A program made the translations under genes and the position numbers. Positions 12,613 to 16,613 of a stretch of 60,305 nucleotides of DNA are shown one piece after another. The stretch is from Candidatus Binataceae bacterium (GTDB taxonomy: Bacteria > Desulfobacterota > Binatia > Binatales > Binataceae). The notes below the pieces were generated by a model. It searched no databases, had not been told where the DNA came from, and saw only the letters and a list, made by a program, of their open reading frames with translations. The stretch lies in the NCBI GenBank assembly GCA_030038355.1, contig JASHPB010000109.1, positions 1 through 60,305 of the forward strand, in the 5' to 3' direction. Position 1 is the stretch's first letter. Each line of letters opens with the position of its first letter.

Positions 12613-12773
12613 TTCGCCTCTGACTCCTCAGCGGTATCCCCAAACCAACGGGTTCACGCCAAGGGTAACCTGTGCGACGCGTGAGGGCAAAGTCGATGCC
12701 GATGAATCGCCACAGCCAATTTACGCGCAAATGGCGTCGCGTAATTGTTACGGCTGTGCTAATCAAGCGCCTT

Positions 12774-14132
12774 ATGTCGAAAATGGGGTTTCCCAACGGA
12801 TTTCTCTGGGGCACTGCCAGCGCCTCCTATCAAATCGAAGGCGCATGGAAGGAAGACGGCAAAGGCGAATCGATCTGGGATCGCTTTTCACATACTCCCG
12901 GCCGCATCAGGCTTGGATGGAACGGCGACGTCGCTTGCGACTTTTACCATCGCTACCGCGACGATATCGCGATTCAGGCTGAACTCGGGCTGAGCGCCTC
13001 GCGTATTTCGCTCTCATGGACGCGCATCCTTCCCGACGGAAAGGGCAAGGTTAATCAGAAGGGCCTCGACTTCTACAATCGCGTGATCGACCAATTGCTC
13101 GAGCGCAATATCCAGCCGTGGGTGACGCTCTATCACTGGGACCTGCCGCAGAAGCTCGAGGATCTCGGAGGATGGCCGAATCGCGACCTCGCCGAGTACT
13201 TTCGCGATTACGTCGCGGTCGTCGCAGACGCGCTCGGCGACCGAGTGAAAAACTGGATGGTGTTCAACGAGCCGTGGATCTTCACGATCTTCGGCTACCA
13301 TCAGGGGATTCACGCCCCCGGACGGAGCGATCCGAAGGCCGCTCTGGCAGCAGCCCATGTCGTCAATATCGCCCAGGGCCTCGGCGTGCGGGCGCTCCGC
13401 GACTCGCGCCACAAGCCCGACAAGGTGGGCGTCGCGTTTAGCATGTCGTCGGTCCATCCGCTTACGGACTCCAGGCGCGACCTTGCGGCAGCGCGGCGAT
13501 GGGACCGCTTCAACAACTACTGGTTCCTTGAGCCCGCGATGAAGGGGCGCTATCCCGATCTCGATTACCAGGGCTCGGTGATCGATTCGCTCGAGCCGCG
13601 GCCGGAAGATTTCACTGCGATGCACGCGCCGCTCGATTTCGTCGGGATCAATCTCTACTTCCGCACGATCGTCGAGGACGCGCCGCTTCGGCAGAACCTC
13701 GGCGTGCGGCAAGTTAGCCCGGAGACGGAGCATCTCACGGAGTTCGGCTGGGAGGTTTATCCGCGATCACTCGGCGAGATGGTGACACAAGTATCGCAGG
13801 AATATCCCGGCGTTCCGATCTACATCACGGAGAACGGATGCTCCTATGGCGACCCGCCTGCGGGCGACGGCCGGGTGCATGACGTTCGCCGGATAGCCTA
13901 CATGCGCAGCTACCTCGCGGAGTTGTGGCGCGCGATTCAAAACGGCGCCGATGTTCGCGGTTACTTCACCTGGACGCTCACCGACAACTTCGAGTGGGCC
14001 GAGGGTTTCGCGCAGCGCTTTGGAATCGTGTGGTGTGACTTCATCACCCAGCAGCGGATCATAAAGGATAGCGGGCGATGGTTCGCCGAAGTGGCGGGAG
14101 CCAACGCACTCGACTTCGATCCTGCGAGATAG
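12774..14132 (+). CDS. GH1 family beta-glucosidase
   Basis: The product is 452 residues if it starts at ATG 12774 (MSKMGFPNGFLWG), the usual length for GH1; in-frame ATGs at 12696 and 12702 would add a basic 20-odd-residue tail. The N-terminal GTASASYQIEGAW is the family signature. The acid/base Glu sits in FNEPW, the nucleophile Glu in YITENG, and the aglycone loop WTLTDNFEWAEGF is intact. It retains beta-glucosides (or galactosides) with a TIM-barrel and probably acts in the cytoplasm, since no signal peptide is seen. It is followed after 16 nt by a membrane protein, so the two may be cotranscribed. Confidence 0.94.
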   Translation: MSKMGFPNGFLWGTASASYQIEGAWKEDGKGESIWDRFSHTPGRIRLGWNGDVACDFYHRYRDDIAIQAELGLSASRISLSWTRILPDGKGKVNQKGLDFYNRVIDQLLERNIQPWVTLYHWDLPQKLEDLGGWPNRDLAEYFRDYVAVVADALGDRVKNWMVFNEPWIFTIFGYHQGIHAPGRSDPKAALAAAHVVNIAQGLGVRALRDSRHKPDKVGVAFSMSSVHPLTDSRRDLAAARRWDRFNNYWFLEPAMKGRYPDLDYQGSVIDSLEPRPEDFTAMHAPLDFVGINLYFRTIVEDAPLRQNLGVRQVSPETEHLTEFGWEVYPRSLGEMVTQVSQEYPGVPIYITENGCSYGDPPAGDGRVHDVRRIAYMRSYLAELWRAIQNGADVRGYFTWTLTDNFEWAEGFAQRFGIVWCDFITQQRIIKDSGRWFAEVAGANALDFDPAR

Positions 14133-14148
14133 CCGGCGCGGAAATTCA

Positions 14149-14763
14149 ATGAGCGCTGAGGCGTTGCTGAACTGGCTGCACCTGGCGGCGATGGCGGCCT
14201 ATTTCGGCGCACAGTTCGCGGTCATCTACATGTTGATCCCGGCGGCCGAGACTGCTCCCGATGAACCGTCACGCCGCAGGAGTCTGATCGCGGGCTTCCG
14301 CTTCTACAACCCCTTTACGATCGGCGTGCTTGGAATAGTGGTGATAACCGGCGCGATGCGCCTGACGGACCTGAAAGCTTCGATGAAGTTCGATTACTTT
14401 GCGCGAATCGGAGAACCGCTCGCGATCAAACTGGGGCTGGCCTTTCTGCTCATCTTCATCCAGACCTACATCACCTTCGGCCTGGCGTTCCGAATTGGAC
14501 GACAGGAAGAGGTGGCGGCGCACGGCGACGGCATGCCGTTCACAGTGGAGCAAATCAACTCGATGCTCTCGCGCATCCGCGCGATGTGTTGGACGACGAT
14601 CATCCTAGCTGCCGCAATCATGGCCGTGTCGCTCACGATGGTGAGGCGGGCGATTGATGACACCGCCACCGCCTCCAGCGCCGCGCGGCTCTCGCCGATT
14701 TCGGCATCCGCGCGGAGCGCACCATCGTATTATGCAAGCGCCAGCATCGAGGTCACGATGTAG
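14149..14763 (+). CDS. Four-helix integral membrane protein of unknown function
   Basis: The product is 204 residues with hydrophobic segments at roughly 10-32, 55-75, 88-112 and 145-166, the arrangement of small CopD/DUF2269-like membrane proteins. Conserved-looking His in NWLHLAAMAAYFG at the start of helix 1 and a polar RFYNPFTIG loop are reminiscent of heme- or copper-associated families, but no definite assignment is possible. The last ~35 residues are low-complexity Ser/Ala. The 3' end overlaps the convergent micro-gene at 14730-14906 by 34 nt, which may mean its C-terminus has drifted. It follows the GH1 gene closely. Confidence 0.7.
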   Translation: MSAEALLNWLHLAAMAAYFGAQFAVIYMLIPAAETAPDEPSRRRSLIAGFRFYNPFTIGVLGIVVITGAMRLTDLKASMKFDYFARIGEPLAIKLGLAFLLIFIQTYITFGLAFRIGRQEEVAAHGDGMPFTVEQINSMLSRIRAMCWTTIILAAAIMAVSLTMVRRAIDDTATASSAARLSPISASARSAPSYYASASIEVTM

Positions 14764-14906
14764 GCAATGGTGATGAAGCCGAAGATCGCGACCGGCAGCT
14801 CGTTGAGCAGGTTGTAGTTCGCGAGCCGAACACCTTCGCCGTCGGTGGCAGTGGTGGTGCTCGGGTTCAGCCCTGCAAGTCTTGCTTCATTGGTGGTAGC
14901 GTTCAT
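14730..14906 (-). CDS. Micro-membrane protein A (58 aa), paralogue of its neighbour
   Basis: A 58-residue protein beginning MNATTNEARLAG. It has a polar N-terminal half and one C-terminal membrane segment (NELPVAIFGFITIAYIVTS). A strong ribosome site GGGAGAA lies 5-6 nt before ATG 14906. Downstream of its neighbour in the same direction (40 nt apart), it shares the MNAT start and the pattern LL-ELP-A-F---T-AY---S--AL with it. I know no family for it. Two homologous small ORFs with good ribosome sites and compatible hydrophobicity are unlikely by chance. It probably inserts in the inner membrane with the N-terminus in the cytoplasm or exported. Confidence 0.72.
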   Translation of the reverse strand: MNATTNEARLAGLNPSTTTATDGEGVRLANYNLLNELPVAIFGFITIAYIVTSMLALA

Positions 14907-14945
14907 TTGAATTCTCCCGTTAATCGAATTGCGATGTTGCGTTCG

Positions 14946-15119
14946 TTAGACCAGCGCGATCAGCGAGCTCGCGACGTAAGCCAGCGTGAGAATCGCGAAC
15001 ACTGCGCCGGGCAGTTCGCTGAGCAGCGTGCTCTGGGCGATGCGATAGCCTTCTGCGTTGATGTTGATCTGGCGCTCGGTCTCGATTGGTCCGATTTGGG
15101 TCTTAGCTGTTGCGTTCAT
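14946..15119 (-). CDS. Micro-membrane protein B (57 aa), paralogue of its neighbour
   Basis: A 57-residue protein starting MNATAKTQIGPIETE, with a single C-terminal membrane segment (ELPGAVFAILTLAYVASSL). The ribosome site GGGAGG sits 7 nt before ATG 15119. It is the first gene of a two-gene unit with protein A; about half of the last 28 residues are identical between the two, while the N-terminal halves differ, which suggests tandem duplication with selection on the membrane part. The upstream 296 nt has no other gene and must hold the promoter. Confidence 0.74.
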   Translation of the reverse strand: MNATAKTQIGPIETERQININAEGYRIAQSTLLSELPGAVFAILTLAYVASSLIALV

Positions 15120-15415
15120 CGTCGTGCCTCCCGAGATTGTTTGAATCCTGCTACAGCAAGGTTAGTGCCACGGGGAAACTCTCAATTTTCGAAGAGCGAT
15201 CAGTGTCAGAAATCGCCAAATGCGAGTGACAGTTTTCGGAAAGTTGAGAAAATTATTGGTTTTTTAGTTGGTTGCGTTTTGCGAAACACGAAATTACTTC
15301 GAAGGTCATATTCCAATGAATTCTCATTTCGCGTATCGCTGCAAGAATCCGAATGCGCAAACAGATGCAGTAGAGACACTGCAGTATCATCCGTGTACCG
15401 CGCCGGAGACATCGA
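15120..15415. other. Divergent intergenic region, AT-rich
   Basis: No gene was found. The stretch 15170-15350 is markedly richer in A/T than its surroundings (runs of T near 15258 and alternating AT), which is usual for promoters. It lies between the micro-membrane operon (leftward) and the methyltransferase gene (rightward), so both promoters should be here. No clear -35/-10 pair or palindrome could be fixed by eye. Confidence 0.5.
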
Positions 15416-16180
15416 ATGAACGATGATGACGCACTACCGTCTCCCGAAGGTAAAACCAAAGGCACCGGATCGCTGCCGCCCACCATGGATGCTCCACCTG
15501 CCCTACATGAAACGCGCACGGCACCCTATCTCTCGCGGCAGTTTGCGCTCAGGGTGGGCGAGCTAACGATCCTGCTCGTCGCGATCGTTGGCGCAATCGC
15601 GCTCGGGCTTGGAATCACCGACTACTTCGCCGCTCATCGATACATCCTCGCCTACCTCGTCGCATATGCGGGCTTTCGATACGCCGACCTTATGATCCGT
15701 GACGAATTGGCGGAGCAGCCGCCGCGCGAGGAGCTATCGCGACGGATTTCGAGTCAGCTGCCACTGCTCCTGATGTTCGCGGCGGCGCCGTTCGAGCGCA
15801 CCTATGTTTACGCGGGGCTCGCTCCACGATGGGCTGCAGCACTCGGACTGCTGCTGGAACTGCTCGGGATGTGGCTCGCACTCGGCGCGCGGATCCAGCT
15901 CGGATTCTTGACGGCCGGCCGCACCGATCGGCCGTTCCTGGTACGGACAGGATTCTTTCGCTACATTCGCCATCCCACGTTCGCAGGCGTGTACCTGGTG
16001 TTAATCGGCTGGCCGCTGATCTATGGCGCGCCGATCACGCTGGTCGTGGCTGCGATCATTGCCTGGCTATCGCTGCGCCGTCAGATCCAGGAAGAGGAAA
16101 GCGGGCTGCTTTCGATTTTCGGCGAGGAGTACGAGAACTACATGCGCGCGACCGACGCGCTCGTGCCCAACATCTGGTGA
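15416..16180 (+). CDS. Integral-membrane methyltransferase of the ICMT/PEMT type
   Basis: The product is 254 residues with ATG at 15416 and a GGAG ribosome site 8 nt upstream. Helices lie around 45-75, 80-95, 115-160 and 195-215. The C-terminal signature of isoprenylcysteine/phospholipid methyltransferases is complete: YIRHPTFAGVYLVLIG followed by EEESGLLSIFGEEYENYM. Bacterial members methylate membrane-proximal small substrates using SAM; the substrate here is unknown. The N-terminal 40 residues are polar and lie in the cytoplasm. It converges on rnhA. Confidence 0.86.
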   Translation: MNDDDALPSPEGKTKGTGSLPPTMDAPPALHETRTAPYLSRQFALRVGELTILLVAIVGAIALGLGITDYFAAHRYILAYLVAYAGFRYADLMIRDELAEQPPREELSRRISSQLPLLLMFAAAPFERTYVYAGLAPRWAAALGLLLELLGMWLALGARIQLGFLTAGRTDRPFLVRTGFFRYIRHPTFAGVYLVLIGWPLIYGAPITLVVAAIIAWLSLRRQIQEEESGLLSIFGEEYENYMRATDALVPNIW

Positions 16181-16190
16181 GGCCCTGGCG

Positions 16191-16613
16191 TTACTCGGCC
16201 TCGACGAGCTGCCGCTTTGCGCCCATCACGGCGAGCTCATCAGCACGGTTGTTGAGCGCGTCGGAGTCGTGGCCACGTACCCATTCGAAGCGCACGCGGC
16301 GCGCCGCGGTCTCAGCGTCGAGCACTTTCCATAGATCGTGATTCTTGTTGCGCTTCCATCCCTTGGTCAGCGTGTAGATGACGTACTGACTGTCGCTGCG
16401 AAGAACGACGGAGCTGCCGGGCGCGGTGGCGCGGAGGCCTTCGAGCGCGGCAGTTATCTCCATGCGATTATTGGTGGTCGATGGATCGAACCCGTTTATC
16501 TCGCGGGATTTCGCGCCGGGGCCCATCACGATCACGCCCCATCCCCCAGGACCGGGATTTCCGCGGCAGGAGCCGTCCGCATAGACGAGATAATCTGAAT
16601 CCTGAGTGCTCAC
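16191..16613 (-). CDS. rnhA: Ribonuclease HI
   Basis: The product is 140 residues, the normal type-1 length. The four acidic catalytic residues are visible: Asp in VYADGSCRGNPGPGG, Glu in NNRMEITAA, Asp in LRSDSQYV and Asp in LNNRADELA, with the conserved His in VRGHDSD. It removes the RNA of RNA-DNA hybrids, for example Okazaki primers and R-loops, in the cytoplasm. The basic handle region KGWKRNKNHDLW is present, as in E. coli-type enzymes. It lies 9 nt downstream of glgA and probably shares its transcript. Confidence 0.96.
   Translation of the reverse strand: MSTQDSDYLVYADGSCRGNPGPGGWGVIVMGPGAKSREINGFDPSTTNNRMEITAALEGLRATAPGSSVVLRSDSQYVIYTLTKGWKRNKNHDLWKVLDAETAARRVRFEWVRGHDSDALNNRADELAVMGAKRQLVEAE

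Follow-up and report, generated by a model that had tools for sequence, protein, structure and literature searches.

A new family of paired small membrane proteins in Candidatus Binataceae, with predicted sigma-54 control and a possible link to PspA

Small stress-induced membrane proteins are abundant, and most lack an assigned function because they were found one by one and without context. In Bacillus, the small membrane protein LiaI is encoded in the liaIH operon under the two-component system LiaRS, is induced with the PspA-family protein LiaH and recruits LiaH to the membrane (PMC9239133). In enterobacteria, sigma-54 controls the small inner-membrane proteins PspB, PspC, PspD and the product of pspG, an orphan sigma-54 gene that is unlinked to pspA but co-regulated with it (PMC9239133). 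The two adjacent small genes described here, A and B, lie on a stretch of 60,305 nucleotides from an uncultured soil bacterium of Candidatus Binataceae, and this whole stretch is referred to as the window. Their products resemble LiaI as small membrane proteins for which we propose co-induction with a PspA-family protein under a two-component system, but they are unlinked to the PspA operon, have a putative sigma-54 promoter of their own and match no LiaI-family profile. With the Psp proteins they share the small size, a predicted place in the inner membrane and a promoter that is of the sigma-54 type by sequence, and like pspG they are unlinked to pspA. They differ in that the candidate activator has a receiver domain and a partner kinase, whereas PspF is an AAA+ protein without a receiver that is held by PspA, and in that the Binataceae loci hold two paralogues each. 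The 18 members searched gave no Pfam or NCBIfam hit to the PspB, PspC, PspD or PspG families. The best reading is that A and B would work like LiaI or PspB/PspG, without homology to them.

Both genes were found on the minus strand, as the two tandem frames of 58 and 57 codons that the first-pass annotation had described. Gene B (14946..15119, 57 aa, ATG start) is the first of the pair and of S-type (AQSTLLSELPG), and gene A (14730..14906, 58 aa, ATG start) is the second and of N-type (ANYNLLNELPV). Since B precedes A on this strand, the promoter is expected upstream of B. The ribosome sites GGGAGG of B (15127..15132, minus strand) and GGGAGA of A (14913..14918, minus strand) are in place, whereas the short gap between the frames measures 39 nt and not 40 nt. 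Over its final 34 nt, A runs into the 3' end of the plus-strand gene at 14149-14763, which converges on it. The MNAT start and the pattern LL-x-ELP...F...T.AY...S..AL are common to both proteins. Their proposed homology is borne out by a tblastn search of B against its own genome, which returned A at E 7e-7 (33% identity) and three more paralogues on other contigs, and by the members that the family profile finds across the class. The N-termini had been called different; they are not unrelated, as MNATTNEAR and an R-x-AQ element are common with other family members. That first reading gave no function, and the sigma-54 promoter and the enhancer-like sites discussed below were not part of it.

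Members of the family were gathered by an iterated profile and alignment A1. Against 148 genomes of the class, the family profile found members with E-values of 1e-12 to 5e-28 in 15 genomes from five genera, in one to six copies per genome and usually as two tandem genes at a single conserved locus. The 41 distinct sequences all fall within one family, Candidatus Binataceae, the named relatives of the carriers being Candidatus Binataceae and Candidatus Binatus MAGs. In a phylum-wide sample of 395 genomes no real member was found outside Binataceae, and the lone match there (E 0.005) was rejected as an 18-residue stretch. Searches of Pfam, NCBIfam, PHROGs and PDB sequences with members and profile gave chance-level matches at most, in keeping with the initial impression that the proteins match nothing known. 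The hits to Colicin_V, an unrelated family (E 0.006, two members), RebB (E 0.11, one member) and phrog_35337 (E 0.007) were discarded at this level. No description of these proteins was found in the literature searched, including papers on Binatota and Psp, and the family is new and previously unnamed.

Orthologues showed dN/dS values of 0.12-0.41 in seven of the nine pairs measured, with 0.32 for B against its same-genus orthologue and 0.30 for A. The value of 0.99 for the pair at the HMG locus rests on 8 changes and was left uninterpreted, and the near-zero value (0.05) at the NAD locus rests on 2 nonsynonymous changes. A lack of homologues and neutral evolution had been named as grounds for dismissing the two frames; the search gave homologues in 15 of the 148 genomes, and purifying selection. 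A and B are real, selected genes. That they are chance ORFs was suggested by their length, frames of 57-58 aa being short and below the usual gene-length cut-offs, as had been remarked at the outset. This view is refuted by homologues in five genera, the ribosome sites, dN/dS mostly within 0.12-0.41 and the conserved promoter, and its probability is negligible.

The proteins start with a variable and polar N-terminus (about 25 aa in B), which often reads MNATTNEAR and is followed by R-x-AQ and by a single membrane helix that runs to the C-terminus; A shares the architecture of B. The consensus reads R-x-AQ-xx-LL-x-E-L-P-G-xx-F-G-x-I-T-L-x-Y-I-V-x-S-L-L-A-L-A. One transmembrane helix is predicted per protein, which agrees with the membrane segment recognized earlier, and AlphaFold2 modeled B as a single helix at 12-56, its membrane part at pLDDT above 90. 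Residues E36, Y49 and L57 show no variation, and P38, G39, F42, T46 and S53 almost none. The conserved positions recur with a helical period (p = 0.01) and thereby mark one conserved face of the helix, which may be a packing face. The tree of the 41 members, built on 58 columns, was poorly resolved, with the S-type clade separating (92/92). Every tandem pair in which both genes could be typed consists of one S-type and one N-type gene, with the S-type gene first in genera g1 and g16 and the N-type gene first in g10 and g11. Because each typable pair holds both types despite this swap between genera, both are retained.

The upstream DNA of all members showed the motif TGGCAC-N5-TTGCT. In the window, the corresponding -24/-12 box TGGCACTAACCTTGCT (15155..15170, minus strand) lies 35 bp upstream of B's ATG, and among 120,580 positions on both strands no other site reaches 11/11. 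The 19 genes of this type that come first or stand alone, from five genera, all have a box with 9-11 of 11 matches to the sigma-54 consensus at 35-44 bp before the ATG, and counterpart boxes also precede genes at the paralogue loci. No sigma-54 box was found upstream of the second genes of pairs, A included, so that the pair is probably one transcript. The gene rpoN and about 20 enhancer-binding proteins are present. Judged from the promoter sequences, the small genes are very probably under sigma-54 control. Genome-wide counts of exact boxes, forward and reverse, were 15 against 6 for a reversed-pattern control in the window's genome (G000), 4 against 6 in G016 and 8 against 5 in G023; a lone box without enhancer or conservation therefore proves little. 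The diverged members L035, L036, L042 and L047-L050 have no sigma-54 box, and L050 sits inside an apparent TetR/sulfatase/GST operon, which indicates that the family also came under other regulators. Outside the family, similar short-chain-dehydrogenase-like genes in G000 (L228, contig C77) and G023 (L229, contig C90) stand behind the identical exact box TGGCATCGCGGTTGCT, located 16 bp before the ATG.

Type I toxin peptides such as TisB and Ldr are tiny, hydrophobic and multicopy, sometimes in tandem. A and B might accordingly be toxin-like or pore-forming peptides whose induction depolarises the membrane, a proposal to which the small size, the single membrane helix, the tandem paralogous copies and the stress-type promoter lend themselves. 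It is difficult to reconcile with dedicated sigma-54 control, with two subtypes kept as a pair across genera and with the invariant polar and aromatic helix face, a feature that sets A and B apart from TisB and Ldr; nor is there a charged C-terminus. Rfam gave no hit, and thus no known antisense RNA family, at 14000-16300, and no family copies were found on plasmids, phages or viral contigs. We regard a toxin or pore function as quite improbable.

Comparison of the enhancer-binding proteins of genomes with and without the family singled out an NtrC-type regulator with receiver, Sigma54_activat and HTH_8 domains. All carriers examined have it, against one of six non-carriers, of which several were only partly sampled. 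In the window's genome it is encoded at L089:1072-2517 (G000:C344). Its gene belongs to an operon in the order histidine kinase, regulator, in some genera a PEMT methyltransferase, and then a PspA/IM30 protein (PF04012 PspA_IM30, E 1e-18 and 1.6e-20); its promoter holds a conserved sigma-54 box and the repeat TGCAG-N8-CTGCA. In domain architecture the regulator resembles the sigma-54 two-component regulators AtoC, ZraR and PEP-CTERM PrsR, and in NCBIfam the ntrC, AtoC, ZraR and PEP_resp_reg models all scored high, below their cut-offs. It differs from this group by the adjacent PspA gene, by the putative operator TGCAG-N8-CTGCA and by its partner, a kinase with a 2TM domain and no large sensor domain. 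The PspA orthologue was found in 15 of 15 family carriers and 7 of 26 non-carriers (naive p = 2.7e-6), and kinship explains part of this co-occurrence, which is weaker at the genus level (5/5 with the family, 5/12 without). The operon predates the family, G004 having the operon and no family member, and the small genes lie at separate loci outside it. The window's genome also holds a second PspA/IM30 copy, 94% identical (G000:C245:393-1175), which reflects either a duplication or a strain mixture in the MAG.

The kinase-regulator-PspA promoters are also where one of two enhancer-like repeats was first found. There TGCAG-N8-CTGCA (UAS2) outranks every other 5-mer repeat at gaps of 0-14 and scores 58 of 60 possible. 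In the small-gene promoters it ranks first of 1024, with a score of 98 against a mean of 79.3 (sd 4.1), and exceeds 20,000 GC-matched background draws, the resulting p being optimistic because orthologues are not independent. The window carries it as the perfect inverted repeat TGCAGTAGAGACACTGCA (15366..15383, no strand), which lies 213 bp upstream of the -24 box and 33 bp from the start of the divergent methyltransferase gene; no other site in the window reaches 10/10. This copy is also the only perfect one before small genes; the other small-gene promoters have 7-9 of 10 matches and one paralogue 6. On the sequence evidence, the NtrC-type regulator of the kinase-PspA operon is more probably than not the activator of the small genes.

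The other repeat, TTTGCG-N3-CGCAAA (UAS1), comes out first among all 6-mer inverted repeats of the small-gene promoters. The exact sequence TTTGCGNNTCGCAAA occurs at 10 places in 25 genomes, 8 of them before small genes, and UAS1 is nearly private to this family. For the main locus of g1, g10 and g11 its distance from the box is -122/-123, and for two paralogue loci -69, a step of 53 bp or about five helical turns. The copy in the window, TTCGTGTTTCGCAAA (15278..15292, minus strand, 122 bp upstream of the -24 box), matches at 10/12, which is not significant by itself, the case resting on the set. In the promoter of the kinase-PspA operon UAS1, the strongest site of the small genes, is absent, and another of the approximately 20 enhancer-binding proteins may thus be the main activator. 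The small genes could then belong to a different pathway, in which such a protein would read TTTGCGN3CGCAAA on a metabolic or nutrient signal and the small proteins would regulate or stabilise another membrane complex. The dominance and near family-specificity of UAS1 fit such a pathway, as do the metabolic genes that adjoin paralogue loci (thiolase/HMG-CoA-synthase-like, phosphoketolase, GH1) and a 171-aa protein gene with an exact sigma-54 box and a UAS1-like 10/12 site at -125. Under this reading, however, both the sharing of UAS2 and the joint occurrence with the PspA operon would be coincidental; moreover, neighbours vary by locus and the small genes are stand-alone. We consider it possible but unlikely. 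Similar genes for proteins of about 171 aa follow an exact sigma-54 box in two genera, L240 (G000:C243:1544-1559) and L233 (G023:C135:18879), the UAS1-like repeat being that of the G000 gene; they are a possible further target of the small-gene activator.

At the main locus the small-gene pair is flanked by a convergent pair, a weak DUF2214-like membrane protein (14149..14763, plus strand, 204 aa) and a GH1 glycosidase (12672-14132), and by a divergent PEMT/ICMT-type membrane methyltransferase (15416..16180, plus strand, 254 aa), beyond which lie RNase H and then glycogen synthase. The methyltransferase and the DUF2214-like gene are conserved flanks by Pfam and synteny, and the layout recurs in other genera with losses and changes of flanks. 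A and B could be accessory subunits of the methyltransferase or of the GH1/DUF2214-like genes, which would account for the conserved synteny, for the PEMT-type methyltransferase in the kinase-PspA operon of several genera and for GH1 adjoining two different family loci. The flanking genes are divergent or convergent and hence not co-transcribed, however, and the methyltransferase gene probably lies outside the small-gene transcript. In genera without the family the methyltransferase is present with no small gene beside it, and at the paralogue loci the neighbours are unrelated: thiolase/HMG-CoA-synthase-like genes, GH1 with phosphoketolase, or other genes, the small genes being mostly stand-alone units. 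An accessory role is very unlikely, marginally more so than the toxin function. Methyltransferases of this type occur both in the PspA operon (L211:5557-6036) and divergent to the small genes (15416-16180); the two share Pfam families and have no significant pairwise similarity, so their kinship was not used. GH1 genes are convergent to small genes at two non-orthologous family loci (the window; L041, L043, L045). A conserved 445-aa neighbour was considered as an enhancer-binding protein and rejected, having no Pfam hit.

The best explanation, to which we give about an even chance, is that A and B are co-transcribed membrane proteins, induced through sigma-54 and an NtrC-type regulator, which serve the PspA-like protein in envelope stress. 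Their expression would be off by default and on with sigma-54 RNA polymerase and an enhancer-binding protein. Membrane stress would lead the 2TM kinase to phosphorylate the NtrC-type regulator, which would bind TGCAG-N8-CTGCA upstream both of its own operon and of the small genes and activate sigma-54 polymerase at the two places; a second activator or the second class of sites, TTTGCG-N3-CGCAAA, would give a further input at the small genes only. A and B would each insert as one helix, the polar N-terminal tail probably being cytosolic, and may pack through the conserved face (E36, G39, F42/G43, T46, Y49, S53 and L57), either with each other in S-type/N-type hetero-oligomers or with a partner in the membrane. 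As membrane partners of the PspA-like protein, as LiaI is of LiaH, they might assist it in sensing a stressed membrane, docking on it or stabilising it. While the regulation is well supported, the role as partners of the PspA-like protein is one that we infer, and we hold it plausible at somewhat less than an even chance. More tentatively, the paired S-type and N-type single-helix proteins could form an inducible membrane receptor or sensor of the Binataceae sigma-54/two-component/PspA system, with one enhancer shared with PspA and one private.

In summary, the sigma-54 promoter and the enhancers are the informative part of this locus. The family carries a readable regulatory code, made up of a sigma-54 box and two classes of enhancer, one of them at helically phased distances, and as this code ties it to a named membrane-stress module, its role becomes directly testable. 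A PspA module beside a kinase and an NtrC-type regulator is now seen in an uncultured lineage, and gene finders gain a set of real genes of 57-59 codons that they may miss. For Binataceae, the data suggest that the small proteins help to repair or to sense a damaged cell membrane.
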